64,000 nt of DNA, taken from Arthrobacter mangrovi. GTDB taxonomy: Bacteria; Actinomycetota; Actinomycetes; Actinomycetales; Micrococcaceae. Shown here piece after piece: positions 15,801 to 36,320 of this stretch. Within the stretch, counting starts at the first letter, position 1; each line of letters opens with the position of its first letter. Under the pieces are notes generated by a model. It made no database searches. It saw only the letters and a program-made list of their open reading frames with translations, and was not told the origin of the DNA. The translations under genes and the position numbers were made by a program. The stretch covers positions 1 through 64,000 of the forward strand of contig NZ_BRVS01000019.1 in NCBI RefSeq assembly GCF_026011795.1, written 5' to 3'.

Positions 15801-17682
15801 GGAGGCTGAGGTGCCGCAAGGCGACGGGCCCGGTGGACCGGAGCTGGAGGGCGCCGGGCCGGGAGACATCGGACCGGAGGGCGCCGCGGCCGGCGCGGCC
15901 CATGCCGCCCCTGCCGACGTGGAACCGCTGCTGGCGGAACTCGCGCAGGCCAACCGCGCGCTCAAAGTGGGCATCGCCGGGGTCGAGCGGTGGGCCGCCA
16001 TCGAGGATGCGGCCCGGCTGCGCGACGCCATCGGCGTCCCGCTGCCCATGGGTGTGCCCCTGGCCTTCATCGAACCGGTCGCGGATCCGCTCGGCGACCT
16101 GGTGGGCAGGTACGCGCGCACGCACGGCCCGTTCACCGCGCCGGAATGCGCCGCGCGGCTCGGGCTGGGCGTGGCCGTGGTGGACACCGCGCTGCGCCGG
16201 CTCCTCAAGGACGGCCGGGTGGCGGACGGAGAGTTCCGGCCGCCGGACAGCGAGCGCCCGCCGCAGCCGGGCCTGACCGAATGGTGCGACGTGGAAGTGC
16301 TGCGCCGGATCCGCCGGCGTTCGCTGGCCGCGCTGCGCCAGGAAGTGGAGCCGGTGGAACCGGCCACCTACGGGCGGTTCCTGCCGGTGTGGCAGAACGT
16401 CGGCTCCGGCCTGCGCGGGCTGGACGGAATCGCCACGGTGGTGGACCAGCTCTCCGGGGTGCCGATCCCTGCCTCGGCCTGGGAGCCGCTGGTCCTCGGC
16501 TCCCGCGTGGCGAACTACGCGCCGGCGATGCTGGACGAGCTCATGGCCACCGGAGAGGTGCTCTGGTCCGGCGCCGGCTCGCTCCCCGGCAATGACGGCT
16601 GGATCAGCCTGCAGCTGGCCGAGAACGCCCCGCTGACGCTGAACCCGCAGCCGGACTTCGAGCCGAGCGTGCTGCAGTACGAGCTGCTGAACGTGCTCTC
16701 GGCCCAGGGGCAGTACGGCGGCGGGGCGTTCTTCTTCCGCCAGCTCGCGGACGCCCTCGCCGCGGCCGGCACCCAGGCCCCGGATACCGACGTCGTGACC
16801 GCCCTCTGGGAGCTGGTCTGGGCCGGACGGATCACCAATGACACCTTCGCACCGGTGCGGGCGCTGCTCGCCGGCGGGAGCACGGCGCACCGGCAGCGGC
16901 CGTCCGCGCCGCGGGCACGCTCCGCCCGGCTGGGACGGATCGGGCGGATGCACGCACTCGGCGGGTCCGGGCCGCGGCCGGGCCAGCCGGGCGGCCAGGC
17001 GCCCCGGGGTGCGCCCCCGCTGGCCGGCGGGCGCTGGTCGCTCCTGCCCTCCCCGGAACCGGATACGACGGTCCACGCCCACGCGACCGCCGAGCTCCTG
17101 CTGGACCGCTACGGCGTGGTAACCCGCGGGTCGGTAGCCAGCGAGGGGGTCCCGGGCGGCTTCGGGCTGCTGTACAAGGTGCTGGCGAGGCTGGAAGAGA
17201 CCGGGCGCTGCCGCCGGGGCTACTTCATCGAGCACCTCGGCGCCGCGCAGTTCGCGGTCCCGGCGACGGTGGACCGGCTGCGGTCCTTCAACCGGGACGC
17301 GCAGCTGGACGAACAGCCGCGGGCCGCCGTCGCGCTGGCCGCCACGGACCCGGCGAACCCCTACGGTGCCGCGCTGCCCTGGCCGGCGCAGGACGGCGGG
17401 CACCGGCCCGGCCGCAAGGCGGGCGCCCTGGTGGTGCTCGTCGACGGCGAACTGGTGCTCTACGTGGAGCGCGGCGGCAAGACGCTGCTGACCTTCACCG
17501 AGGATCCGGAGGATCTCTCGCTCTGCGCCGCGGCGCTGGTGGCGGTGATCCGCCGCGGGGCGGCGGACAAGATGGCCGTGGAGAAGGTCAACGGCGTCCC
17601 GGTGCTGGACACCGAGGTGGCGCGGGCGTTGACCGGCGCCGGTTTCTACACCACGCCGCGGGGACTGAGGTTCCGTGCCTGA
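12811..17682 (+). CDS. lhr: Long-form Lhr DNA repair helicase
   Basis: A 1623-residue superfamily 2 helicase. The Walker A motif APTGSGKT is at residues 50-57, the DEVH box at 189-192, and the helicase motif VI region QRVGRAGH at about 434. The Lhr winged helix and core domains follow, then the long C-terminal region found only in the bacterial long form. Flexible Gly/Pro/Ala-rich linkers occur around residues 1005-1035 and 1365-1415. Lhr translocates 3' to 5' on single-stranded DNA and unwinds RNA:DNA hybrids; in mycobacteria it is DNA-damage-induced. TAGGCT lies 7 nt before ATG. The stop overlaps the nei2-like start by 8 nt, so the two are translationally coupled. Confidence 0.95.
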   Translation: MGQQPAAATVLDRFTPATREWFAGAFRAPTDAQAGAWQAVSAGSHALVVAPTGSGKTLAAFLWALDTFIAKAEVPPELPLGDLKPARKKPSRNTGTRVLYISPLKALGVDVERNLRAPLIGITQTAKRLGLPAPDITVGVRSGDTPANERRRLLTHPPDILITTPESLFLMLTSKARETLAAVDTIIIDEVHAVAGTKRGAHLAVSLERLDAMLPARAQRIGLSATVEPLDTVARFLGGSAPVEIVAPPANKSWDLTVTVPVEDMTALAAPTQEELGPGAQPASIWPHVEEKIVDLIAANRSTIVFANSRRLAERLTARFNEIWAERLAPSVWDEPAPPSPNGQEAGAAPVPAPAKPPAQIMAQAGSTSGAEAVLARAHHGSVSKDQRAQIEDDLKTGRLRCVVATSSLELGIDMGAVDLVVQVESPQSVASGLQRVGRAGHQVGETSQGVLFPKHRQDLVNTTVTVERMLAGRIEPLFIPANPLDILAQQTVAATALGSIDVEEWFDVVRRSAPFATLPRSAYEATLDLLAGRYPSDEFAELRPRIVWDRVAGTIAGRPGAQRLAVTSGGTIPDRGLFGVYLVGSEDPGTVGTSKSRGGRRVGELDEEMVYESRVGDVFALGATSWKIEDITHDRVLVSPAFGQPGKLPFWKGDSLGRPVELGRALGAFVREVTAAAPETALERLRASGLDDWAADNLTAYLAEQRQATDVIPSDRTLVVERFHDELGDWRVVLHSPFGLPVHAPWALAVGARLHQRYGMDGSAMAADDGIVLRVPMMEDEPPGADLFLFDPEELDAIVTAEVGGSALFASRFRECAARALLLPRQNPAKRTPLWQQRQRSAQLLDVARKYPTFPIVLETVRECLQDVYDLPALKDLAAAIGRRELRIVETATPQPSPFARSLLYGYVASFLYEGDSPLAERRAAALSLDPTLLNDLLGRAELRELLDAGIIARTERELQRLTEDRKVRGAEGIADLLRLLGPLTTAEVAERVRPPEAEVPQGDGPGGPELEGAGPGDIGPEGAAAGAAHAAPADVEPLLAELAQANRALKVGIAGVERWAAIEDAARLRDAIGVPLPMGVPLAFIEPVADPLGDLVGRYARTHGPFTAPECAARLGLGVAVVDTALRRLLKDGRVADGEFRPPDSERPPQPGLTEWCDVEVLRRIRRRSLAALRQEVEPVEPATYGRFLPVWQNVGSGLRGLDGIATVVDQLSGVPIPASAWEPLVLGSRVANYAPAMLDELMATGEVLWSGAGSLPGNDGWISLQLAENAPLTLNPQPDFEPSVLQYELLNVLSAQGQYGGGAFFFRQLADALAAAGTQAPDTDVVTALWELVWAGRITNDTFAPVRALLAGGSTAHRQRPSAPRARSARLGRIGRMHALGGSGPRPGQPGGQAPRGAPPLAGGRWSLLPSPEPDTTVHAHATAELLLDRYGVVTRGSVASEGVPGGFGLLYKVLARLEETGRCRRGYFIEHLGAAQFAVPATVDRLRSFNRDAQLDEQPRAAVALAATDPANPYGAALPWPAQDGGHRPGRKAGALVVLVDGELVLYVERGGKTLLTFTEDPEDLSLCAAALVAVIRRGAADKMAVEKVNGVPVLDTEVARALTGAGFYTTPRGLRFRA

Positions 17683-18481
17683 AGGGGACACCGTCTGGCG
17701 AACGGCGCGGGTCCTGCACCGTGCACTCGCCGGACAGGAGCTGACGGCGTCGGACTTCCGCGTGCCGCGTTATGCCACGGCGGACCTGGCGGGCAACACG
17801 GTGGACGAGGCGGTCTCGCGCGGCAAGCACCTGCTCATCCGCACCAGCGGGCCGGCCGGCGCCCTGAGCATCCACTCGCACCTGAAGATGGAGGGCAGCT
17901 GGCGGATCTACGCGCCGGACCAGCGCTGGAACAAGCCGGCCTTCCAGGCACGGATCGTGCTGCGGACGGCGCAGGCCACCGCCGTCGGCTTCCTGCTCGG
18001 GATCCTGGACCTGCTGCCCACGGCGGAGGAAGGCAGCGCCGTCGGATATCTGGGCCCGGACCTGCTGGGCCCGGATTGGGACGCTGGGGAGGCGCTCCGC
18101 CGGCTGGTGGCCCAGCCGGACCGCGCCGTCGGCCTTGCACTGCTGGACCAGCGGAATCTGGCCGGGATCGGCAATGTCTACCGGGCGGAGCTGTGCTTCC
18201 TGGCCCGGGTCCACCCGCTGGCCCCGGTCGGCCGGGTGGAGGAACTGCCCCGGATCGTGCAGCTGGCCAAGACCCTGCTCGAAGCGAACAAGGACCGCAG
18301 CCGCCGCAACACCGTCGGGGGGCCGGGCGGACGGAACGCCAGCCCGGTCTGGGTCTACGGGCGGGCCGGAAAACCCTGCCTGCGCTGCGGAACGCCCGTA
18401 GTCCACACCTTGCTCGGCGATACCGAGCTCACCGAGCGCGACCTGTACTTCTGTCCGCGCTGCCAGCCCGAGACCATATGA
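17675..18481 (+). CDS. Endonuclease VIII-type DNA glycosylase (Nei2-like)
   Basis: 268 residues of the Fpg/Nei family. The protein begins MPEGDTVWRT, with the catalytic proline and glutamate of the family directly after the initiator, and a conserved lysine in GKHLLIRT. The helix-two-turn-helix motif is LLDQRNLAGIGNVYRAE, and the C-terminal zinc finger is CLRC...CPRC. The start is GTG 17675, inside the last codons of lhr. The lhr-nei pairing is also found in mycobacteria and suggests a joint base-excision and unwinding repair unit. MPEGDTVWRT is typical of the Nei2 subgroup rather than Fpg (MPELPE). Confidence 0.93.
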   Translation: MPEGDTVWRTARVLHRALAGQELTASDFRVPRYATADLAGNTVDEAVSRGKHLLIRTSGPAGALSIHSHLKMEGSWRIYAPDQRWNKPAFQARIVLRTAQATAVGFLLGILDLLPTAEEGSAVGYLGPDLLGPDWDAGEALRRLVAQPDRAVGLALLDQRNLAGIGNVYRAELCFLARVHPLAPVGRVEELPRIVQLAKTLLEANKDRSRRNTVGGPGGRNASPVWVYGRAGKPCLRCGTPVVHTLLGDTELTERDLYFCPRCQPETI

Positions 18482-25114: not shown

Positions 25115-26656
25115 CTACCGGCGGTGGATGGACTTGTAGCTCAGGTAGGCGTTCAGCCCCTCGATCCCGTATTCGGTGCCGAGGCCGGAATCGTGCCGGC
25201 CGCCGAAGGGTGCCGAGTGGTTCGAGGCGAAGAAGTTGATGCCCACCGAGCCGGTGTCCATCCGGTCCGCCACCGCCAGCGCCGCGTCCTCGTCCTTCCC
25301 GAACACGAGCCCGCCGAGTCCGAACTCCGTGTTGTTGGCGAGCGCGACGGCGTCGTCCACGCCGGAGTACTTCAGCACGGAGATCACGGGGCCGAAGATC
25401 TCTTCGCGGGAGATCCGCATGTCCGGGGTGACGTCGGCGAAGACCGTGGGCTCCACGAAGTAGCCGTGCTCCAGTCCGCCGCCGAGCCGGGCCGCGCGGC
25501 CGCCGGTGGTGGCGCGGGCGCCTTCGGCCAGGCCGGACTCCACGTACTCGAGCACCGTCCGGTACTGCGAGGCGGTGGCCGCCGGGCCGAAGACCGTGGC
25601 TGGATCCAGCGGGTCGCCCTGCCGGCCGGCGGCGATGGTCGCCGTGACCATGTCGACCACCTCGTCATAACGCCCGGCGGGCGCGAGGATGCGGGTGGAG
25701 ATGTAGCAGGTCTGCCCGGTATTGCGCATGCAGGACCGCACCAGCACCTGCGACATGGCGTCCAGGTCGGCATCCGGCAGGACCACGGCGCTGGACTTGC
25801 CGCCGAGCTCCAGCGTGACCGGGCGCAGCAGCTCGCCGCAGGCCGCGGCGATCTTGCGGCCCACCGGGGTCGAACCGGTGAACGCCACCTTGTCCACGCC
25901 CGGGTGCCTGACCAGCGCGTCGCCGAGCCTGCCGGAGCCGGTGACCAGGTTGACCACGCCGGCCGGCACGCCCGCGGCGGCCACAGCGTCGACGATGATC
26001 CGGAAGGACAGCGGCGTCGGGGACGCCGGCTTCATCACCACGGTGCAGCCGGCCAGCAGCGCCGGCGCCAGCTTGATCACCATCAGGTTGATCGGGAAGT
26101 TCCACGGCGCAATCAGCGCGCAGACGCCGACCGGATCCCGGCGGACCACGGATTCGCCCCCGCCGCGCGGGAAGGGCCGCACGTCTTCGCGCTCGAGGTA
26201 GTCCGCGAGCGAGGCGAAGTAGCGGAAGATGCCGGCGGCGTTGGCGGCGGCGCCGGAGGACTCGGAAACCGGCGAGCCGTTCTCGCGGGTGTTCGTCAGC
26301 GACAGCTCGGTGGCCCGCTTCTCTACCTCGTCCGCGATCCGCAGCAGGTAGCCGGCGCGCTCCGAGGGCGCCAACCGCGCCCAGTCTCCGTCGAAGGCCC
26401 GGCGGGCGGCCGCGACGGCGGCGTCGAGATCCTCTGCCGTGCCGTCCGGCACGGAGCCCCAGACCTGGCCGGTCGCAGGGTCGGTGACGTCGTTGCGGCC
26501 GGTGCCCGCCGCCGTCGTCCACGCGCCGTCGATGAACACGTCGTCGACGTGGGTGTACGGCAGCGACAGCGCGGCGCGCGCGTCGATTGCCGGGCCGGAG
26601 AACGACGACGGCGCCTGGCCGGGTGTCGCGGGTGCGGTCTGCGGCGTGGTGGTCAT
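25115..26656 (-). CDS. creC: Aldehyde dehydrogenase, CreC-like (hydroxybenzaldehyde oxidation)
   Basis: 513-residue NAD(P)-dependent aldehyde dehydrogenase. The catalytic cysteine is at 317 (NTGQTCYIS), the general base glutamate at 283 (LELGGKSS), and the cofactor motifs APWNFP at 183-188 and GSTPVG at 261-266. It is the last gene of a minus-strand operon, and its ATG overlaps the end of the HD gene by 4 nt. Position and partners match creC of the C. glutamicum p-cresol cluster, where it oxidises 4-hydroxybenzaldehyde to 4-hydroxybenzoate. The family is certain; the substrate is inferred from synteny. Confidence 0.85.
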   Translation of the reverse strand: MTTTPQTAPATPGQAPSSFSGPAIDARAALSLPYTHVDDVFIDGAWTTAAGTGRNDVTDPATGQVWGSVPDGTAEDLDAAVAAARRAFDGDWARLAPSERAGYLLRIADEVEKRATELSLTNTRENGSPVSESSGAAANAAGIFRYFASLADYLEREDVRPFPRGGGESVVRRDPVGVCALIAPWNFPINLMVIKLAPALLAGCTVVMKPASPTPLSFRIIVDAVAAAGVPAGVVNLVTGSGRLGDALVRHPGVDKVAFTGSTPVGRKIAAACGELLRPVTLELGGKSSAVVLPDADLDAMSQVLVRSCMRNTGQTCYISTRILAPAGRYDEVVDMVTATIAAGRQGDPLDPATVFGPAATASQYRTVLEYVESGLAEGARATTGGRAARLGGGLEHGYFVEPTVFADVTPDMRISREEIFGPVISVLKYSGVDDAVALANNTEFGLGGLVFGKDEDAALAVADRMDTGSVGINFFASNHSAPFGGRHDSGLGTEYGIEGLNAYLSYKSIHRR

Positions 26657-27417
26657 CGGATCACTCCAGTCTTGAGCAGCGCGTTGGAGCGCGCCAGGTC
26701 CGCCGTGCCCATCTGCACCGCGGCATCGGTAATGAGTTCCGGGATGATTTCCGCGGCGAGCCGGTCCGTGTACACATCAGGGGTCATGCCGAACCAGGAC
26801 GAGGCCAGCGCGATGCCGGCGTGGTCGAACCGCCACAGCCGGTCGGCGTCGCGGACCAGGGCGTCTTCGATCGAGTAGGCCACGTGGCGGGTGTCGTGTC
26901 CGTCGATGATCTCGCAGACACGGTCGATGAATTCCGCCGGGTAGCCGAGGCCGGGCAGCACGCGCCGGGCGACCTTGCAGCCCTCGGCCTCGTGCTCGTA
27001 CCGGATTGCCGCCTTGCGCCAGTCGCCGGTGAAGCCCTCGGACAGGATGCGCGACTCGTCCACATGCGCCCAGCCGGTATCGTGCAGCACGATGGTCACG
27101 CGCACCAGCTCCGCGTCCGCCTCCGGGTGGGCCCGGCAGAGGCGCTCGGCGTAGGCGAGCGAAATGGGCAGGTGGATGTCGTTGCCGCGGGCGCGGGTCT
27201 CGGACACCACGCTCTTCCACAGCCGGTCGAGGTCCGCCCCGGCAGGGGTCAGCGATGCGGGCCGGGTGTCCACCGGGCCGGTGGCAGGAACCGGGCGGAC
27301 CGGGTGCGCGGCGGCGAAGGCTTCGGCGCGGGGGTCCGACGCGTGCGCGCCGGGGTCCTGCCCGGGCCAGGCCGGGGCGCCGTCGTTGGTTTGCGTCTGC
27401 GTTTCGGGGGTGCTCAT
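26653..27417 (-). CDS. creD: HD-domain phosphohydrolase, CreD-like
   Basis: 254 residues. An HD domain spans about residues 80-215, with metal ligands in LHDTGWAH (HD at 112-113), a histidine in YEHEAEGCKVARRV, a second HD in EIIDGHDTR and an aspartate in VRDADRLWRFD. The N-terminal 55 residues are Pro/Ala-rich and probably disordered. In the C. glutamicum pathway CreD hydrolyses the aryl phosphate of the oxidised intermediate, releasing the free hydroxybenzyl alcohol or later product. The gene follows the reductase by 7 nt and overlaps creC by 4 nt. A paralogue lies at 35443-36129. Confidence 0.83.
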   Translation of the reverse strand: MSTPETQTQTNDGAPAWPGQDPGAHASDPRAEAFAAAHPVRPVPATGPVDTRPASLTPAGADLDRLWKSVVSETRARGNDIHLPISLAYAERLCRAHPEADAELVRVTIVLHDTGWAHVDESRILSEGFTGDWRKAAIRYEHEAEGCKVARRVLPGLGYPAEFIDRVCEIIDGHDTRHVAYSIEDALVRDADRLWRFDHAGIALASSWFGMTPDVYTDRLAAEIIPELITDAAVQMGTADLARSNALLKTGVIR

Positions 27418-27424
27418 CAGTTCC

Positions 27425-28750
27425 TCAGCCGTCCGTGACGATGGTTTTCAGGACCACGGCGGGGTCTGCCGCCGCGTCCGCGGGAATGTTCTGGCCCTTG
27501 GCGAGGGCATTCTTGACAGCCATGAAGTCCAGCGGCGCGTTCACGCAGTCCGCGGCGATGATTCGTCCGTCCCGGTAGTACAGGACGGAGAACTTGCCCC
27601 GCTCGTCGTCACGCCGGACCACAGTGCTGTCGTAGCCGAGCGTCAGCCCGGCGATCTGGAGTTTCAGGTCCGCCTGGTTGGACCAGAACCACGGGATGCC
27701 GGCGTAGTCCTCGCTGCGGCCCATCAGCGAATAGGCGGCGACCTTCGCGTGCTCGATCGCGTTGTTGACGCTCTCGAGCCGGATGCGCTCGCCCTCCGGC
27801 GCCCCGGGCAGCGGGTTCGGGATGTTGGCGACGTCCCCGACCGCCACGGTGGTGCCGTCGGAGGCCACGGCATGGCGGTCCACGACGATCCCGTTGTCCA
27901 CGTCGAGGCCCAGCTGTTCGGCCAGCTCGGTGTTCGGTACCACGCCGATGCCGACCAGCACCAGCTGCGCCGGCACCACGCTGCCATCGGCAAGTTCGAC
28001 GCCGGCCACGCGGCTTCCGTCTCCGGCCGGCACCAGGCGGTTCATCCGGGCGTCCAGCCGGATGTCCAGCCCGCGTTCGCGGTGCGCGTTGAGGAAGTAC
28101 TCGCTGGTTTCTTCGCCGACCGCGCGGCCGATCAGCCGCGGCCCGTACTCCAGGACGGTGACGGCCTTGCCCATCTTGTGCAGGCTGGACGCGGCCTCGA
28201 GCCCGATGAATCCGCCGCCGATGACCACGGCCTCGCGGACGCCGTCCAGCTGCGCCTTCAGGGCCAGCGCGTCGTCCGCGTTGCGCAGGTACACCACGCC
28301 GTCCAGTTCCGCACCGGGCAGGTCCAGTTTGCGGGCCCGGGCACCGACGGTCAGGGCCAGCCGCTTGAACGGGAACCGTGCGCCGGAGGCGGCATGCGCC
28401 ACGCCGGAGCCATCGGATTCGCGTTCGATCCGCTCGATCCGCTGGCCCTTGACCAGGGCGACGTTGTGCTCCTGCCAGTACTCGTTGGAGCGGAAGATCA
28501 GCGACTCGCTCTCCACCGTGCCCTGCAGGAATTCCTTGGACAGCGCCGGGCGCTGGTAGGGCCGGTGGTCTTCCTCGCCGAGCAGCGTGATGTGCTCGTC
28601 GAAACCCAGCGCCCGCAGCGACACCGCCAGCTGCACGCCGGACTGGCTCGCGCCGATGATCAGCAGCCCCGTGCGCACGGCACCCTCGACGGCGGTAGCG
28701 TCCGCCGAGACGGAGTGTGCCGCCGTCGTGCCTGTCTTGGTGGCGTCCAT
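27425..28750 (-). CDS. creE: FAD-dependent ferredoxin reductase, CreE-like
   Basis: 441-residue NADH-dependent reductase of the putidaredoxin/rubredoxin reductase family. The FAD motif is GASQSG at 33-38 (a GxSxxG variant), followed by YQRPALSKEFL, the NAD fold VVIGGGFIGLEAA and the AVGDVAN segment. The start at ATG 28750 leaves 2 nt after the ferredoxin stop. It passes electrons to the [2Fe-2S] ferredoxin encoded just upstream and so to the P450 of the same operon. The first 28 residues are poorly conserved-looking Thr/Ala sequence. Confidence 0.87.
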   Translation of the reverse strand: MDATKTGTTAAHSVSADATAVEGAVRTGLLIIGASQSGVQLAVSLRALGFDEHITLLGEEDHRPYQRPALSKEFLQGTVESESLIFRSNEYWQEHNVALVKGQRIERIERESDGSGVAHAASGARFPFKRLALTVGARARKLDLPGAELDGVVYLRNADDALALKAQLDGVREAVVIGGGFIGLEAASSLHKMGKAVTVLEYGPRLIGRAVGEETSEYFLNAHRERGLDIRLDARMNRLVPAGDGSRVAGVELADGSVVPAQLVLVGIGVVPNTELAEQLGLDVDNGIVVDRHAVASDGTTVAVGDVANIPNPLPGAPEGERIRLESVNNAIEHAKVAAYSLMGRSEDYAGIPWFWSNQADLKLQIAGLTLGYDSTVVRRDDERGKFSVLYYRDGRIIAADCVNAPLDFMAVKNALAKGQNIPADAAADPAVVLKTIVTDG

Positions 28751-28752
28751 GG

Positions 28753-29073
28753 TCAGACCTGGGCTTCCGGTGTGGTCACGTACAGGTCCGTGTCCTCGGC
28801 CAGGCGCAGCTGGCAGGACAGGCGGGAGTTGTCCTCGCGGTCCACGACGGTGCCGTAGAGCATCTCGTCCTCCATCTCCTCCATCTCGGGGAGCTGGTCG
28901 AGGCAGTCCTCGCGGACGAAGACGTGGCAGGTGGCGCAGGACAGCGAGCCGCCGCATTCGGCGACGATGCCGGGCACGCCGTTGCGCACCGCGGTCTCCA
29001 TGACCGAGTCGCCGGCGTTGCCTTCGATGTCGCGGACGGTGCCTTCAGCGTCGGTGAAATGAACCGTAGGCAT
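28753..29073 (-). CDS. creF: [2Fe-2S] ferredoxin, CreF-like
   Basis: 106 residues of the adrenodoxin/putidaredoxin type. The cluster ligands are Cys40, Cys46, Cys49 (ECGGSLSCATC) and Cys87 (RLSCQL). The acidic helix around residues 56-72 (DCLDQLPEMEEMEDEM) is the usual partner-binding surface. It carries electrons from the reductase encoded 2 nt downstream to the P450. It lies 27 nt after the SDR gene, with ribosome site AAGGAGAT. Confidence 0.93.
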   Translation of the reverse strand: MPTVHFTDAEGTVRDIEGNAGDSVMETAVRNGVPGIVAECGGSLSCATCHVFVREDCLDQLPEMEEMEDEMLYGTVVDREDNSRLSCQLRLAEDTDLYVTTPEAQV

Positions 29074-29100
29074 GGGGATCTCCTTCTCGGTTGTGTAGGT

Positions 29101-29880
29101 CTAGATGAACTGCCGGCCGCCGTCGACCACGAGGGTCTGGCCGGTGATGTAGGAGGAGTCGGGTCCCGCGAGGAACAGCGCGGCGCCGACGATGTCTTCG
29201 GGCTGGCTGGCCCGCTTGAGGGCGCCGCGGTCCACGCCGTAGCTCTCCGCGTTTTCCATCAGCGAGTAGCTGGCCTCGGTGAGCGTGAAGCCGGGGGCGA
29301 TCGCGTTGACCGTGATGCCGCGCCGGCCGAGTTCCTTGGCCAGCACCCGGGTCATCGCGACCACGCCGCCCTTCGAGGCCACGTAGTGGAGCCACTGCTC
29401 GGAGCCGGAGAAGATGGTCGCCGAGGAGAGGTTGATGACGCGGCCGCCGTCGGCCAGGTACTTGCTCGCGGCGCGGGTGACCAGCCAGGGACCCTTGAGG
29501 TTCACGTTCATTACCAGGTCCCACTCGTCCGGGTCGATGTCCTCGAACGGGCTGCGGGTCACCGTCGCGTAGATCGCGGCGTTATTAAGGACGACGTCGA
29601 TCCCTCCGTTGCCGAATTCGGCGCACTTTTCGGCGAGTGCCGTGGTGGATTCGGCGCTGGTGACGTCGGCCTCGAAGGCCGCCGCCTCGGCGCCGGTTTC
29701 CCGGACGAGGCGGGCGGTCTCCTCCGCGCCGGCGAGGTTGACGTCCGCCACCGCCACGCGGTAGCCGCGGCCGGCGAAGCCGAGCGCGAAGGCCCGGCCG
29801 AGTCCGCCGGCGGCGCCGGTGATCAGCACCGTGCGCGCGCCCTGCTGTCCGGGGGCGGTCGGGGTGGTTTCCTGCGTCAT
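29101..29880 (-). CDS. creG: Short-chain dehydrogenase, CreG-like
   Basis: 259-residue SDR. The Rossmann glycine motif TGAAGGLG is at residues 21-28, the NNAA motif is present, and the catalytic YVASK follows an LSSAT serine region. The end (VDGGRQFI) is typical of classical SDRs. By position it corresponds to creG, which in the C. glutamicum pathway oxidises the hydroxybenzyl alcohol to the aldehyde for CreC. ATG 29880 is chosen; the 86-nt gap to the preceding synthase gene has no terminator. The substrate is inferred from context. Confidence 0.85.
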   Translation of the reverse strand: MTQETTPTAPGQQGARTVLITGAAGGLGRAFALGFAGRGYRVAVADVNLAGAEETARLVRETGAEAAAFEADVTSAESTTALAEKCAEFGNGGIDVVLNNAAIYATVTRSPFEDIDPDEWDLVMNVNLKGPWLVTRAASKYLADGGRVINLSSATIFSGSEQWLHYVASKGGVVAMTRVLAKELGRRGITVNAIAPGFTLTEASYSLMENAESYGVDRGALKRASQPEDIVGAALFLAGPDSSYITGQTLVVDGGRQFI

Positions 29881-29966
29881 GTCAGATCTTTCGGTAAGGG
29901 CCGGACCGGGGCGATGGGGGTAGGCCCCGGTCCGGCGGGGAACGCCTGGCCGTTTGGGGAGACAGC

Positions 29967-31841
29967 TCAGACGTGGCTGTGGCTGTGCGCGCCCGGGCCG
30001 GCGATGGCCGGTTCTGCGGCTTCCTCGGCATCCAGGATCTGCACGGTGCCCTTGGTGCCGTCCACCCTCAGGCGCTGGCCCGTCTTGATCGTGGTGGAAC
30101 CGGAACCTGTGCCGGTGACCGCGGGCAGCCCGTACTCGCGGCAGACGATCGCGGCGTGGCTCATCATGCCGCCGATGTCCGTGACGGTGGCCTTGATCTT
30201 GCCGAAGATCGGGCCCCAGCTGGGCGCGGTTACGGTGGCCACCAGGATCTCGCCCTGCTGGACCTCGGAGAGCTGGTCCGAGTCCGTCACGACGCGGGCG
30301 ATGCCCTCCACGACGCCCGGAGAGGCCGCCATCCCGCGCAGGCCGCCGCCTTCGACTTCCTCTCCGGCGCCGAGCCACTGCTGGACCTGTTCGGTGGTGA
30401 TGCCCCAGAGCATCCGGGTGAACGGCTCGGTGATGGAGGCCGGCGGGGTGTTCAGGGCCGGCTGCGGGCGGGCCGTCTTGAGCGCGTCGATGATGCCGCG
30501 GCGGCGTTCGATCTCCTCGGGCCAGTAGGTCGGGCCGATCGGCTGTGCGCCCACGCCCCAGCCGGTGACCAGGTCGAAGAGCGCGTCGCGGACCTCGTTG
30601 CGGCCCAGGTAGAGCAGGTCGTCCGGCTCGTTCCAGAAGCCCTCGGCGTGCATCATCCGGGAGAGCTCGCGGATCTTGCGCCAGAAAACTCCCATGGTCC
30701 AGTGCTCGATGTAGAAGTTGTGGTTCTCCACGTACGGGTAGGCGGTAGCGGCCAACTGGCGCTTGGCGTCGAAGACGGCCTGGGTCTCGCCCTCGAGCAG
30801 GTCCCGGTATTCCTCGACGATGCGGTCCTTCTCCGCGATGAGCTCCTCGGTGGGCCGCATGATCTCCTGGCCCTCGTCGAGCCGGCGGATGTAATCGGCG
30901 ATGTAGCCGAGCGGAATCTCCTGGTGTTCCTTCCAGTACTTGTCGTGGCCGTAGAAGCCGTTGCCCACGGTGAAGTTGAACCACGGGTCCTGGGCTTCCT
31001 CATACTGCCTGATCCACCGCTCTCCCCCGCTCGAGGCGCGGACCGCGCCCAGGGTGGCTTCGACGTCGTCGGTGTTGGCGAAGGCGGACTGGATGCCCAG
31101 TTCCACGGCCAGCTTGGCCAGCTGCTTGAGCTCGTCGTCCGGGCGGAACAGCTCCATGTCCACGCCCTGGACCATGGTCGCGATCGACTGGTCCGGAATG
31201 TTCGGGAAGACTTCCTTGCAGAAGTTGAAGAAGTCCAGGTAGGCGATGTAGCCCAGGTTCAGGAACTCGAAGTGGTACTGCCAGTTCTGGTAGGCCAGCT
31301 GGATCAACCGGTCGTAGTTCTCCAGCAGCACCTCCGAACCGTCCTTCGCCTTGCCGGTGGTGATGTCCTCCATCGGAACCATGTCCGGCAGCTTGGCGAA
31401 GGACAGCGTCTCCATCTCGTCGATGGTGCCGCGGACCTTGACGTGCCACTGCTTGAGCAGCTCCTCCCAGTTCTGGAAGTAGTGGCCGACGCGCTGTTCG
31501 AACAAAGGCACGCGCGCGGCGATCTGGTCTTCGGGGACCGGGATCGGCGACATGTACAGGTAGCCGAGGTGGATGCGGAATTCGATGCCGTTGGCGTTCG
31601 GAATCATCAGGTGCCGGGCGTTGTACTGGCCCAGGCACTTGACCGCGAACTCGCCGCCGATGGTCTCGAAGGGCTTGAAGACCGTGGGCCAGTGCTGGCT
31701 GTCGCAGAACCAGAACTTGGCGTCCTCGGCTTCCTTGAGCTTGTCCTGGAAGACCAGGTAGTACGGGTACAGCTTCTCCCAGCCCTCGGCGCCGGCGGGA
31801 ACCGGCAGCTCGGAAGGCTTCGGGAACGACTTCATGGACAT
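29967..31841 (-). CDS. creH: PEP-utilising phosphohistidine subunit of aryl phosphate synthase, CreH-like
   Basis: 624 residues. The C-terminal ~100 residues are a PEP-utilising mobile (swivelling) domain with the phospho-carrier histidine at about 562 in GGMMSHAAIV. The large N-terminal part (residues 1-500) has no PEP-binding barrel as in PEP synthase; it is rich in aromatic residues and likely holds the phenol acceptor. With the ATP-grasp subunit encoded upstream it mirrors the split phenylphosphate synthase and C. glutamicum CreHI, which phosphorylate the phenol hydroxyl. The start at ATG 31841 has AAAGGA 8 nt upstream; an in-frame ATG lies 6 nt further in. The His-rich tail HSHSHV is odd. 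Confidence 0.8.
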   Translation of the reverse strand: MSMKSFPKPSELPVPAGAEGWEKLYPYYLVFQDKLKEAEDAKFWFCDSQHWPTVFKPFETIGGEFAVKCLGQYNARHLMIPNANGIEFRIHLGYLYMSPIPVPEDQIAARVPLFEQRVGHYFQNWEELLKQWHVKVRGTIDEMETLSFAKLPDMVPMEDITTGKAKDGSEVLLENYDRLIQLAYQNWQYHFEFLNLGYIAYLDFFNFCKEVFPNIPDQSIATMVQGVDMELFRPDDELKQLAKLAVELGIQSAFANTDDVEATLGAVRASSGGERWIRQYEEAQDPWFNFTVGNGFYGHDKYWKEHQEIPLGYIADYIRRLDEGQEIMRPTEELIAEKDRIVEEYRDLLEGETQAVFDAKRQLAATAYPYVENHNFYIEHWTMGVFWRKIRELSRMMHAEGFWNEPDDLLYLGRNEVRDALFDLVTGWGVGAQPIGPTYWPEEIERRRGIIDALKTARPQPALNTPPASITEPFTRMLWGITTEQVQQWLGAGEEVEGGGLRGMAASPGVVEGIARVVTDSDQLSEVQQGEILVATVTAPSWGPIFGKIKATVTDIGGMMSHAAIVCREYGLPAVTGTGSGSTTIKTGQRLRVDGTKGTVQILDAEEAAEPAIAGPGAHSHSHV

Positions 31842-31892
31842 GGGCGTCCTTTCGGTGCGGGCTCGACGTCGGGCCCTGGCTGACAACTTTCA

Positions 31893-31928
31893 GTGCAGTG
31901 GTGCAGTGGTGCCGTAGTGCTGTGGTGC
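31893..31928. repeat. Short 8-nt direct repeats between creI and creH
   Basis: Four successive 8-mers of the type GTGCAGTG, GTGCAGTG, GTGCCGTA, GTGCTGTG followed by GTGC lie in the 118-bp gap between the two synthase subunits. No gene was recognised there. The repeat may simply be slippage-generated. Confidence 0.6.
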
Positions 31929-31959
31929 GGGTCGGACGGTGCTGCTCAGGCGGTGCTGG

Positions 31960-33117
31960 TCAGGCAGTGGTCTTGAGCAGCGAGGCGGTGATGCTGCCCA
32001 GGCTGAAACCGGTGGCCGCGGCCGTGGTTCCGGAGGCAGCGTCGCCGCTGGCCGCGGAACCGCCGGACGCGGGGATGCCGAGCGAGGCCGCGTAGCCTCC
32101 CGTGGAGGCCTTGGGCGCGGCCGGCTTGGAGGAGTGCACGGTTTCCGGGCGGGACTGGAGCAGCAGGAGGTTTTCGCCGTCGGGCAGGTCGGCGTCGAGC
32201 GCCCACTCGATGTCCTGCGGGCACTTGTAGTGCTTCTCCGCCCGCTTGGCCATGGAGGCAACCGCGGCGAGTTCCTCGTCCGTCAGGCTGCGGCGGCCGC
32301 GGCGCTCCTCGTCGACCTCGCGCTCCACCAGGGTGTGGGCGGAGCGGTCCGGAACCAGTTCGGCATGCTTGTCGCCGAGGTGTTCGCTGACGACGGTCAG
32401 GGTCACCTTGTCCAGCACGATGTTGTCCGGTGTGACCTGGCCGGAGACAACCATCTCGCCGACACCGTAGGAGGAGTCGATGGTGATCTTCGAGCGGTCC
32501 CCGTTGGCCGGATCGAGCGTCATAGCGACCCCGGAGACCTTCGAGTTGACCATCTTCTGGACCACGACGGCCATGGAGAGGCCCTCGTTGGGGATCCCGT
32601 TCTTCAGCCGGTAGATGATGGCCCGGGCGGTGAAGAGCGAGGCCCAGCACTGGCGGATGTGGTCGGTGACGGCCTTGGCGCCCTCGAGCCACAGGTAGGT
32701 GTCCTGCTGGCCGGCGAAGGAGGCGTCCGGCAGGTCTTCCGCCGTGGCGCTGGAGCGGACCGCTACCGGGACGGGTTCCTCGAACCGGGCCATCAGCGCC
32801 TCGTAGGCCGCCAGGGTCTGGGCCCGCAGGCCCTCCGGCACGGGCTTGGAGCAGATGTCGGCGCGGATCCCGGCGGAGACCTTCTCCATCTCGGCGACGT
32901 CTTCCGGGTCCAGGCCTTCCAGGAGGTCGTGGATCTCCCGGGTGATGCCGGCCGCGGACATGAACTCGTCGAATGCGGCGGTGGTGACGACGAACCCGGG
33001 CGGGACGGGCATGCCGGCCGAGGTCATGGTGACCAGGGACGAGCCCTTGCCGCCGAGCGCCTCGAGGGTGGGCTCGATGCCGCCGTCGAAGAACTGGATG
33101 TACTCGTTGCTTTCCAT
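31960..33117 (-). CDS. creI: PEP/pyruvate-binding (ATP-grasp) subunit of aryl phosphate synthase, CreI-like
   Basis: 385 residues corresponding to the N-terminal ATP-binding domain of PEP synthase. It starts with GGKGSSLVTMTSAGMPVPPGFVVTT and contains the core VRSSATAEDLPDASFAGQQDTYL, the motif MAVVVQKMV, and QDIEWALD and LLQSRPET near residue 330. It ends in about 50 residues of Ala/Gly/Ser-rich sequence, so the phosphohistidine domain is supplied by the separate CreH-like subunit. It transfers phosphate from ATP to that histidine. It lies 5 nt downstream of the P450 gene, clearly in the same operon. Confidence 0.82.
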   Translation of the reverse strand: MESNEYIQFFDGGIEPTLEALGGKGSSLVTMTSAGMPVPPGFVVTTAAFDEFMSAAGITREIHDLLEGLDPEDVAEMEKVSAGIRADICSKPVPEGLRAQTLAAYEALMARFEEPVPVAVRSSATAEDLPDASFAGQQDTYLWLEGAKAVTDHIRQCWASLFTARAIIYRLKNGIPNEGLSMAVVVQKMVNSKVSGVAMTLDPANGDRSKITIDSSYGVGEMVVSGQVTPDNIVLDKVTLTVVSEHLGDKHAELVPDRSAHTLVEREVDEERRGRRSLTDEELAAVASMAKRAEKHYKCPQDIEWALDADLPDGENLLLLQSRPETVHSSKPAAPKASTGGYAASLGIPASGGSAASGDAASGTTAAATGFSLGSITASLLKTTA

Positions 33118-33122
33118 GGTGC

Positions 33123-34400
33123 TTAGGCCTCCCAAGCCACGGGGACGGATTCGGGGACGCGGAAGGAGAGGTTCTCGCGGAACTCGATTGCTTCCGGGTT
33201 GTCCAGCTTCAGGTTGGGTGCCAGCCGGACGATTTCCTCCAAGGCGATCTTCGCCTGGAGCTTGGCGAGCATGTTGCCGAGGCAGTAGTGGATGCCGTAG
33301 CCGAAGGAGAGATGCTCGCGGGCGTTGGGGCGGGAGATGTCGAACTCCTCGCCGCCGGTGAAGCGGGTCTCGTCGCGGTTGGCCGAGCCCATCAGCAGCA
33401 GCAGGCCGGCGCCTTCGGGGATCTTGACCCCACCCACCTCGGCGTCCTTCAGGGCCTTGCGGCGCCACCCGACGATGGAGCCGGAGTAGCGCAGGACCTC
33501 GTCGATCGCCGCCGGAATCTTCTTGGGGTCCTCCACCAGCTGCTGCCACTGCTCCGGGTGGGCCAGCAGCACGCGCACTGCGTTGGAGATCAGCGTGGTG
33601 GTGGTCTCGTGGCCGGCGAAGAGCATGCTGTAGAGGACCGAGGCGATTTCGTGGTCGCTGATCTCGGCGCCGTCCTGCTGGGCCTTGACGAGGTCCGCGG
33701 TGAGGTTATCTCCGCCCTCCTCGTGGGCCACGCGGACCAGCCGCTGGCATTCCTGCCAGTACTCGACGAGGTTGTGGGCGTGCGGGATCTGTTCCTCGTC
33801 GGACAGGTCGCCCCAGGTCATCGCCGCACGCGAGTCGCTCCAGCGCTTGAACTTGTCCACCTCGGCCACGTCGGCGCCGATCAGCGTCAGGATGGTGACC
33901 GTCGGGACGTCGTAGGCGAGGTCGCGGAAGATGTCGCCGCGGCGCTCCGGATTGGCCAGCATCCGTTCCAGCTGGTCCACGACGTTCTGCCGAATGAACG
34001 GCTCCAGCACTTTAAACCGGCGCGGGGTGAAGGCCTTCTGGACCACGGAGCGGATCCGGGTGTGCTCCGGAGGGCGCCGGGCGGAGAGGCCGGAGTAGGC
34101 GGTGAAGCCGCCCTCTTCCATGATCTTCCTGGCGGCCGGGCCGCGTTCGCGCACCGGTGCCTGCGCGTTCTCGCTGGAGAAGGTCTCCCAGTCGTCGAAG
34201 ACTGCCTTGATGTCGTCGTAGCGCGTGACCACGTAGTAGCCAATGCGCTCGTCGAACATGACCGGCTGCTCTGCCCGGAGTTCGGCGTAGGCCGGGAACG
34301 GATCCTTCATCTGGAACGGCTGGTAGCCGTGGTGCCCGGCGGGGGCCTCGGCGCCGTGGCCGAACGGGCAACGGGGGGCCGCCTCAGTCGAGGGTGACAT
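33123..34400 (-). CDS. creJ: Cytochrome P450, CreJ-like
   Basis: 425-residue soluble bacterial P450. The I-helix oxygen-binding motif AGHETT is at 262-267, the K-helix ExxR at 301-304 (EVLR), and the heme-ligand loop FGYGIHYCLG has its cysteine at about 373. In the C. glutamicum system CreJ, fed by CreE and CreF, oxidises the benzylic carbon of aryl-phosphorylated alkylphenols, using the phosphate as an anchoring group. It is the first gene of the cre operon, with an AAGGAG ribosome site and 157 bp of upstream DNA holding a possible IclR operator. Confidence 0.87.
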   Translation of the reverse strand: MSPSTEAAPRCPFGHGAEAPAGHHGYQPFQMKDPFPAYAELRAEQPVMFDERIGYYVVTRYDDIKAVFDDWETFSSENAQAPVRERGPAARKIMEEGGFTAYSGLSARRPPEHTRIRSVVQKAFTPRRFKVLEPFIRQNVVDQLERMLANPERRGDIFRDLAYDVPTVTILTLIGADVAEVDKFKRWSDSRAAMTWGDLSDEEQIPHAHNLVEYWQECQRLVRVAHEEGGDNLTADLVKAQQDGAEISDHEIASVLYSMLFAGHETTTTLISNAVRVLLAHPEQWQQLVEDPKKIPAAIDEVLRYSGSIVGWRRKALKDAEVGGVKIPEGAGLLLLMGSANRDETRFTGGEEFDISRPNAREHLSFGYGIHYCLGNMLAKLQAKIALEEIVRLAPNLKLDNPEAIEFRENLSFRVPESVPVAWEA

Positions 34401-34498: not shown

Positions 34499-34532
34499 AC
34501 AGTATTCCACTGAGTAGAAGCCGGATTACTGT
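34499..34532. promoter_or_regulatory. Candidate operator upstream of creJ
   Basis: Inverted repeat with arms ACAGTATTCC (34499-34508) and GGATTACTGT (34523-34532), 9 of 10 positions complementary, and a 14-nt spacer. It lies about 100 bp upstream of creJ and 26 bp beyond the end of the IclR gene. This is a natural place for control of the cre operon; binding by the adjacent IclR protein is inference. Confidence 0.4.
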
Positions 34533-34557: not shown

Positions 34558-35343
34558 TCACCGCCGGCTCATGCCCAGCAGCGATTCCAGCGGGATGTGC
34601 GCCGTCGCCCGTTCGATCTGGGCGGATACACCCCGCAGGACCGGCAGGTGCCGGGTCATCGAGGCGGACTGCGCCGAGGCCAGCACCAGCCCGAGGCCCG
34701 CCCCGATCCGCTTCGTGTGGAATACCGGGACGGCGATCGAGCAGGACCCCAGCCGCACCTCCTCCAAGGTGGTGGCGTAGCCCTGCCCGCGGATCTGCAT
34801 CAGCTCCTCCGCCAGCCGGCGCGGATTTGTGTGCGTATGCGCGGTGGCCTGCTCCAGCTCGCGGTGCAAGTACGCGTCGCGGACCCATTCCTCTTCGTAC
34901 GCCAGGATCACCTTTCCCACCGCCGTCGCGTGCATGGGCAACCGACCCCCGACCCGCGAGGCCCGCGGCACCCGCTTGGTCCCGTAGATGCGCTCGATGT
35001 AGAGCACCTCGTTGCCGGCCCGGACGGCCAGCTGCGCGGTCTCGCCGGTCAGCGAGAAGAGGTCCTGCACGAACGGCCGCGCAGCCTCGCGCAGCTGCCG
35101 TCCCGTATTCTGCGCCAGTTCCCAGACGCGGATGCCCAGCTGGTACCGGCCCGTGGCGCTGCGGGAGAGGAAGCCCCAGTCGGTGAGTTCGGTGACCAGC
35201 CGGTGCGTTGTGCTCAGCGGCAGCCCGGAGCCCTCGGCAATTTCGGTCAGGCTCAGGGCGCCGCGGGACTTCTCGAACGCCTCCAGGACGGCAAGGACCT
35301 TGGACGTTACCGTCCGCCCGGGTTCCCGGTTTCCGCCCGCCAC
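34558..35343 (-). CDS. IclR family transcriptional regulator
   Basis: 261 residues. The N-terminal winged helix is SKVLAVLEAFEKSRGALSLTEIAEGSGLPLSTTHRLVTELTDWGFLSRS (residues ~14-62), and a C-terminal IclR effector-binding domain follows (VLYIERIYGTKRVPRASRVGGRLPMHATAVGKVILA and the GSCSIAVPVF loop). The start is GTG with a strong AAGGAGG 5 nt upstream. IclR proteins commonly control aromatic catabolism and bind small aromatic effectors, so it is the likely cre regulator. It is on the same strand directly upstream of creJ. Confidence 0.9.
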   Translation of the reverse strand: MAGGNREPGRTVTSKVLAVLEAFEKSRGALSLTEIAEGSGLPLSTTHRLVTELTDWGFLSRSATGRYQLGIRVWELAQNTGRQLREAARPFVQDLFSLTGETAQLAVRAGNEVLYIERIYGTKRVPRASRVGGRLPMHATAVGKVILAYEEEWVRDAYLHRELEQATAHTHTNPRRLAEELMQIRGQGYATTLEEVRLGSCSIAVPVFHTKRIGAGLGLVLASAQSASMTRHLPVLRGVSAQIERATAHIPLESLLGMSRR

Positions 35344-35442: not shown

Positions 35443-36129
35443 TCAGCTCCCCGCGAGCAGCTCCTGCCGTTCGGGCCACAGGGTCACGGACTCCAGCGCA
35501 GAGAGCGCCCGGGCGATCGTCGCCGCTTCCTCGGTGAACAGGTGCCCGTGCACGCGCTGGCTGCACAGCCGCAGCGCCTGCCCGCGCTCCAGGCCGAACC
35601 ACTCCATGACGGTGTCGATGCCGTGCGTGCTCAGCCGCCAGGTCTTGTCCGAGTCCTTCACGATGGCGTCCTCAATGGACAGCGCCTCCTTGCGCGAGTC
35701 ATGGCCGTCGATGATCTCCAGGATCTGCGGCACCCGCGCGGCGTCCCACCCGACCTGCTCCAGGATCCCGGCGGCCAGCCGGGCGCCCTCCTTCTCGTGC
35801 AGCAGCACCAGGTCGGGCCGCCCGCCGCCGGGCGCGATGGCCGCCAGCACTTCCTCCGGCGGCACCTGGGACCAGCCGATATCGTGCAGCATCATGGCGG
35901 GAAGTACGACGGCGGGATCCGCCTCGGGGTGCGCGTGCAGCAGGGTGCGGGCCAGGCCCAGGGCGTAGAGCGTGTGGGCATCATTGTCCCGCACCGCCAG
36001 CAGCGGCGCCGCCAGCTTCCATATGCGGGCCAGTTCGGGCTCCAGCGTAATGACGCCGTCCGGTTGTTCTTCAATCCCGGCGGACACATCGCTGCCGAAC
36101 TGGTTCGCAGCCGGCCTCATCTTCGTCAT
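35443..36129 (-). CDS. Second HD-domain protein, paralogue of the CreD-like hydrolase
   Basis: 228 residues from ATG 36129; starts at 36147 and 36120 are also possible and none has a strong ribosome site. The HD motifs parallel those of creD in order and wording: MMLHDIGWSQV, LLHEKEGARLA, EIIDGHDSR and VKDSDKTWRLS. The flanking sequence differs enough to show old divergence. It lies 99 nt upstream of the IclR gene on the same strand. A second phosphohydrolase beside an aryl-phosphate pathway suggests a different phosphorylated substrate or product, but that is inference. Confidence 0.78.
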   Translation of the reverse strand: MTKMRPAANQFGSDVSAGIEEQPDGVITLEPELARIWKLAAPLLAVRDNDAHTLYALGLARTLLHAHPEADPAVVLPAMMLHDIGWSQVPPEEVLAAIAPGGGRPDLVLLHEKEGARLAAGILEQVGWDAARVPQILEIIDGHDSRKEALSIEDAIVKDSDKTWRLSTHGIDTVMEWFGLERGQALRLCSQRVHGHLFTEEAATIARALSALESVTLWPERQELLAGS

Positions 36130-36320
36130 GCCCTCACGCTGGACCATGCGCTCCCGCCGCGCAACCCGCGTCTTCCGCTGGCCGGAACCCGGCTCGGCCA
36201 TCGACTGGGCAACAGATGCCCTTTTCCGCGCAGGAACGGGCGGCTGCTGCACAGTCGACGGGTAGGTCGTGAGTAAGGGTCGACGGGTGAGGGTCGTGGG
36301 TGAGGGGCGGGCAGCAGCGC

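Follow-up and report, generated by a model that had tools for sequence, protein, structure and literature searches.

Which pathway is served by a gene cluster that joins a cytochrome P450 to a two-part phenol kinase, and how is this cluster controlled? The question is raised by a 64,000-nucleotide stretch of Arthrobacter mangrovi DNA (GCF_026011795.1, NZ_BRVS01000019.1:1-64,000, forward strand), which will be referred to as the window. On its minus strand, positions 25115-34400 carry eight open genes that an earlier note had read as a cre-type operon with the content and order of creJ to creC of Corynebacterium glutamicum, and our analysis supports this reading as correct. The locus is very probably a cre operon, orthologous to the known one, that would serve p-cresol and probably further short p-alkylphenols. 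An IclR-family regulator and a palindrome are proposed to control it, with a second HD-domain phosphohydrolase gene (D2) under the same control. The IclR gene, the palindrome and D2 lie just upstream of the operon and are additions to the earlier note. A route characterised in one Corynebacterium would be encoded here by a rigidly ordered operon that occurs across many Actinobacteria.

Gene content and conservation of the operon

In the order of transcription, the eight genes encode a cytochrome P450 (creJ-like, 33123..34400, 425 aa, with Cys373), the ATP-grasp subunit (creI-like, 31960..33117, 385 aa; PF01326, 374 bits) and the phosphohistidine or swivel subunit (creH-like, 29967..31841, 624 aa, with His562; NF006150) of a predicted phenol kinase, a short-chain dehydrogenase/reductase (SDR) resembling 4-hydroxybenzyl alcohol dehydrogenase (creG-like, 29101..29880, 259 aa; PF13561), a [2Fe-2S] ferredoxin (creF-like, 28753..29073, 106 aa; PF00111), a ferredoxin reductase (creE-like, 27425..28750, 441 aa; PF07992 and PF14759), an HD phosphohydrolase (creD-like, 26653..27417, 254 aa; PF01966) and an aldehyde dehydrogenase (creC-like, 25115..26656, 513 aa, with Cys317; PF00171, 524 bits). 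The Pfam families of all eight products are consistent with cre roles. The intergenic gaps of -4 to 118 nt given in the earlier note were recovered by measurement on the open frames (J-I 5, I-H 118, H-G 86, G-F 27, F-E 2, E-D 7 and D-C -4 nt). All of the key residues it had described as intact were found as well, namely P450 Cys373, ferredoxin Cys40/46/49/87, aldehyde dehydrogenase Cys317, His562 of the swivel subunit and the HD motif at 112-113.

Over 404 residues, the window P450 shared 78% identity (733 bits) with PDB entries 5gwe/5xjn, which we take to be CreJ of C. glutamicum and which are labelled only 'Cytochrome P450'; the next P450 scored 253 bits. Searching 201 Corynebacterium genomes (the genus of C. 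hylobatis) with this solved sequence yielded matches in 12, the best with 96% and the second with 91% identity. Both of these genomes showed the order IclR-J-I-H-G-F-E-D-C, and in comparison to the best one the window products were 59% (IclR) and, from J to C, 76, 68, 78, 75, 71, 72, 64 and 72% identical. The published gene table of C. glutamicum, with which the window is collinear, begins at cg0637 with creC (benzylaldehyde dehydrogenases), creD (phosphohydrolase) and creE and creF (subunits of the P450 system), followed by creG (4-hydroxybenzyl alcohol dehydrogenase), creH, creI and creJ (accessible part of PMC7764795). CreE is described as a ferredoxin reductase and CreF as a ferredoxin in the text available of PMC9549646.

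The kinase subunits point in the same direction. The swivel protein scored about 1290 bits, above the cut-off, for the NCBIfam model NF006150 ('hypothetical protein'). Class-wide, 21 of 394 genomes exceeded this cut-off, as did one of 14 control genomes; because most of the 21 reached only 666-878 bits compared to 1292 for the window, the family is wider than Cre. In the window CreH, the motif GGMMSHAA places Ser561 before the catalytic His562. According to the sections of PMC12167813 at hand, this position is Ser in CreH and PpsA and Cys in HpeH. The protein shared 77-98% identity with relatives from the same family whose genes adjoin a CreI-like gene, or from Rhodococcus plasmids with the cre gene order, and only 38-47% with four remoter relatives on plasmids, of which one neighbours phenylphosphate carboxylase genes. 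Predicted 4-alkylphenol kinases are reported to form a separate clade in the accessible part of PMC9618137, a paper covering 4-cresol catabolism and Arthrobacter. CreH patterns matched none of the viral contigs searched. A phosphoenolpyruvate synthase pair next to an unrelated P450 operon, the finding named in the earlier note as speaking against its reading, is not what the genes show.

CreH with at least 67% identity was present in 49 of 295 sampled genomes of the window's family, and one further genome held a 46% relative only. For comparison of whole loci, one genome per species was scanned with a four-row CreJ alignment, giving 96 relatives, of which 80 loci, all collected through the P450, were kept; counts out of 82 loci or regions refer to the window plus 81 loci. 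The order J-I-H-G-F-E-D-C was kept in 71 of the 80 named loci. This count left out hits of 45% identity or less, and L105-L107, in which D2 lies between H and G, are thus among the 71. An IclR gene was located directly before creJ in 61 of these 71 complete loci. Six of the nine other loci reach contig ends (L040, L048, L065, L101, L109, L112), two gave split hits (L103, L104) and one was partial (L108). Among the former, the contig of L048, from Arthrobacter crystallopoietes, encodes a P450 with 94% identity. In L108, from Streptomyces sp. SID13031, only creJ, creI and a creH fragment are left, and creJ is preceded neither by an IclR gene hit nor by a palindrome within three mismatches. In L103 and L104 (Cryobacterium breve and Prescottella defluvii, respectively) several cre genes matched in two pieces, which represent either decaying copies or assembly errors. 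Arthrobacter sp. C2 has two cre loci (L049 and L060), the first of which is immediately preceded by a pair of a different kind, CreH-like (50%) and CreI-like (39%). Two Rhodococcus plasmids, one typed conjugative and one mobilizable, carry the same nine genes (eight cre and IclR). On these plasmids, and within the stretches examined on no others among the 82 loci, cre adjoins genes annotated as a toluene-4-monooxygenase system (L029:15667-19803 and L030:967-5451), and they possibly encode a complete route for toluene via p-cresol.

Predicted route and its substrate

In C. glutamicum, p-cresol is phosphorylated by CreHI, oxidised by CreJ, CreE and CreF, dephosphorylated by CreD and further oxidised by CreG and CreC to 4-hydroxybenzoate. 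By analogy, CreI of the window would transfer phosphate from ATP to His562 of CreH and from there to the phenol hydroxyl group, CreJ together with CreE and CreF would oxidise this phosphate ester at its alkyl carbon, CreD would remove the phosphate, and CreG and CreC would carry the alcohol and the aldehyde on to 4-hydroxybenzoate. This product would be consumed by PobA and the protocatechuate 3,4-dioxygenase route, encoded elsewhere in the genome. The prediction of the earlier note that the lower pathway lies outside the window held: contig C8 of the same genome carries a 4-hydroxybenzoate 3-monooxygenase (pobA-like) gene with 526 bits for NF006091 (cut-off 351), and beside it genes for a protocatechuate 3,4-dioxygenase beta subunit (TIGR02422, 351 bits, cut-off 296.4) and an alpha-like subunit. 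Therefore, 4-hydroxybenzoate is expected to reach ring cleavage.

Several points weigh against this assignment. The functions of all products are transferred from the published chemistry of C. glutamicum, and our direct observations are gene content, order, motifs, conservation and palindrome statistics. The gene-by-gene comparison was made with the Corynebacterium genome of 96% CreJ identity, and that with C. glutamicum at the level of its published gene table. The pobA-like gene reached only 415 bits for TIGR02360 (cut-off 538.7), and a pcaB-like gene beside it remained at 310 bits, below its cut-off of 355.75. A promoter scan of the cluster, confined to the sigma-70 consensus, gave no match and a terminator scan gave one, counts that are not above those of shuffled sequences.

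The nature of the substrate deserves separate consideration. The same machinery might serve another natural para-substituted phenol, for instance 4-ethylphenol or a lignin-derived alkylguaiacol, with p-cresol as a side substrate. Kinases of this family accept several phenols, as listed for HpeHI in Table 3 of PMC12167813 (seen in part), 22% of positions differ between the window P450 and its solved counterpart, and the substrate is not fixed by sequence. Nevertheless, we consider such a shift rather unlikely, as conservation with Corynebacterium extends beyond the kinase to the whole operon, and the toluene-4-monooxygenase annotated beside cre on the two Rhodococcus plasmids would yield p-cresol.

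The palindrome and the second HD gene

How might the predicted p-cresol operon be controlled? The IclR-family regulator is encoded directly upstream on the minus strand (34558..35343, 261 aa, start uncertain; PF01614 and PF09339), and the 157-nt gap between its gene and creJ contains the palindrome TTCTACTCAGTGGAA (minus strand) at 34505-34519, found by pattern search and proposed as the operator. The general pattern TTCYRYTNRRYRGAA was looked for in the 250 nt upstream of creJ, extended to 300 nt in the case of the window. It was detected exactly in 48 of 82 regions, with at most one mismatch in 69 and with at most two in 76; no such site with up to two mismatches was present before creJ in L090, L100, L104, L105, L106 and L108. 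Both Corynebacterium clusters (96 and 91% CreJ identity) contain an exact copy. At one mismatch or less, the pattern appeared in 0.1% of two-base block shuffles and in 0.6% of other places in the same loci. Examining 300 nt upstream of each gene at the same stringency, with hits below 50% identity dropped, gave sites for J in 68 of 82 cases and for the IclR gene in 4 of 70, compared to 12 of 2775 random places, and none for I (81), H (81), G (76), F (73), E (78), D (75) or C (76). Since the pattern was derived from the regions upstream of creJ, the creJ counts describe rather than test it, and the counts before D2 serve as the out-of-sample test.

D2 (35443..36129, minus strand; PF01966, 33 bits) is located 99 nt upstream of the IclR gene. 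Its open frame extends to 36252, and the start at 36129 is our choice. A palindrome with one mismatch lies upstream of this start at 36173..36187 (pattern search); 0.45 such matches are expected by chance in the window, and the site has the same placement relative to D2 in relatives. With at most one mismatch and within 300 nt, the palindrome preceded D2 in 25 of 40 loci. Four of the 25 loci (L043, L093, L094, L098) have a divergent D2, which in three cases points away from the neighbouring IclR gene, so that either gene may be served by the site. Where D2 is placed between the IclR gene and creJ, as in L090 and L104, the palindrome precedes D2 and is missing in front of creJ.

D2 was 37% identical to the window CreD over 163 residues (34% in a genome-wide search) and 57% identical to the gene in the same position on a R. 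ruber plasmid. It was found in 41 of 82 loci (the copy in L059 being only 38% identical), including those of Arthrobacter, Glutamicibacter, Paeniglutamicibacter, Leucobacter, Microbacterium, Kocuria, Rhodococcus and others; 38 loci were without D2 in the stretches examined and three had too little upstream sequence. In a midpoint-rooted tree of 76 CreD and 41 D2 rows, D2 formed one clade with a support of 1.0, and support on the CreD side was weak (0.25). Both groups share the HD residues H82, H112, D113, H142, H174, D175 and D192 (CreD numbering), and 13 alignment positions separate them. The cre-bearing genomes of Corynebacterium (12) and Brevibacterium (2) each gave a single genome-wide match of 33-36% in place of a D2 orthologue (14 of 14), which in the two Corynebacterium genomes mapped is CreD by position.

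D2 might be a mere neighbour, a general HD hydrolase outside the system. Its function is a sequence prediction, it is missing from the 38 loci mentioned above, and 15 of 40 copies have no palindrome with at most one mismatch in front, the window site itself carrying one mismatch. Six of these 15, however, lie within or at the end of the operon, in the H-G interval (L105-L107) or directly after creC (L075, L077, L082), which leaves nine siteless copies elsewhere (L054, L059, L060, L063, L071, L074, L084, L091, L100). Together with the excess of sites before D2 over random places and with the arrangement in L090 and L104, this makes an unconnected D2 improbable.

The IclR protein is accordingly proposed, from co-occurrence, to bind the palindrome before creJ and would thereby control the operon, with D2 as a further phosphohydrolase under the same control. 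As to the role of D2, we tentatively suggest a second aryl-phosphate hydrolase of the same regulon, which might free phenols that are phosphorylated by the kinase and cannot be oxidised by the P450, or cleave a later ester than the one attacked by CreD. The former possibility is raised because a relative of the kinase accepts many phenols and the P450 is likely to be choosier. If true, D2 would keep the pathway from clogging with dead-end aryl phosphates, and its role would bear on the handling of unwanted aryl phosphates and on biocatalytic uses of the Cre enzymes. The literature searched, which excepted the primary papers Du 2016 and Li 2014 and most subscription papers, yielded no description of either D2 or the palindrome. 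We regard D2 and the palindrome as new parts, and the enzyme operon as an ordinary orthologue of the characterised system.

Elsewhere in the A. mangrovi genome, exact palindromes occur four times, all on contig C6, compared to one per strand for the reversed pattern. Three of them fall in a stretch (L125, C6:82000-96000) with genes for MFS transporters and a further P450, so use of the motif may extend beyond this IclR regulator; perhaps they mark another IclR-type regulon. The palindrome would offer a means to find and induce the cre system and further members.

The kinase and known phenol-phosphorylating systems

At the C-terminus of CreI (31960-32130), an Ala/Ser/Gly-rich linker, whose length varies widely, is followed by a short tip, GFSLGSITASLLK. 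Similar tips are present in many lineages, Corynebacterium included. Among 77 readable tails, SIT was found within the last 35 residues in 41, and a looser pattern, chosen after looking, fitted 47 and not the remaining 30; L065, L091, L101 and an unreadable piece of L103 were dropped. Two AlphaFold runs on read-through pairs gave a mean pLDDT of 58.5 and 63.6 and a pTM of 0.43 and 0.42, with the tail at about 25-30. In Kocuria dechangensis (L091:11219-14173), CreI and CreH form one open frame of 985 aa with an architecture like that of rifampin phosphotransferase (RPH), in which the CreI tip is missing. HpeH and HpeI form no stable complex, according to the accessible text of PMC12167813. This and the tipless fused frame make it tempting to regard the tip as a docking peptide.

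The genome of the window carries an encapsulin gene (L035:1115-2310), and the small protein encoded before it has the C-terminus SLGIGSLKGQQSWR. This ending resembles the cargo motif of encapsulins and is somewhat like the CreI tip. CreI as encapsulin cargo was rejected: in a search covering the genomes of 50 of the 80 loci, only 15 had an encapsulin, and the tip also occurs in genomes without one, for example L047, L050, L053, L055 and L061. Apart from the cluster, the window contains a large gene for an Lhr-type helicase, which a formamidopyrimidine-DNA glycosylase-like gene follows and overlaps (12811-18481 for the two).

Four known systems may be compared with the locus. HpeHI of Rhodococcus rhodochrous GD02 is, like the window kinase, a two-part phenol kinase of ATP-grasp and phosphohistidine subunits (accessible parts of PMC9618137 and PMC12167813). 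In the Hpe pathway, as far as these sources describe it, a biotin carboxylase acts after phosphorylation and Cys precedes the catalytic His, whereas the window has P450 oxidation and Ser561; neither a carboxylase beside the kinase nor Cys before His was found at the window locus, where the neighbours are P450, redox and dehydrogenase genes. Phenylphosphate synthase PpsAB is a homologous two-part phenol kinase, and the window subunit shares 44% identity with a relative that neighbours ppc carboxylase genes. PpsAB leads to carboxylation in anaerobic phenol degradation without a P450, whereas the window has one. That a different phenol-kinase pathway, of the hydroxyphenylethanone or the phenylphosphate type, adjoins a P450 operon unrelated to it is scarcely credible: CreH, HpeH and PpsA are homologues at about 45% (PMC12167813, seen in part), yet the clustered genes identified include no carboxylase, P450 and redox genes accompany the kinase in 71 of the 80 loci (themselves found through the P450), and the window CreH has Ser before His. 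RPH shares the swivel domain, which matches window CreH at 499-604 with 95 bits; it is a single chain acting on an antibiotic, whereas the window kinase is in two parts. The closest likeness to the proposed p-cresol operon is creC-creJ of C. glutamicum (cg0637-cg0645), which agrees in all eight gene families and in their order. The cre-bearing Corynebacterium genomes (12 of 12 among the 201 searched) differ in having only a 33-36% relative of D2, whereas in the window D2 stands next to the IclR gene.

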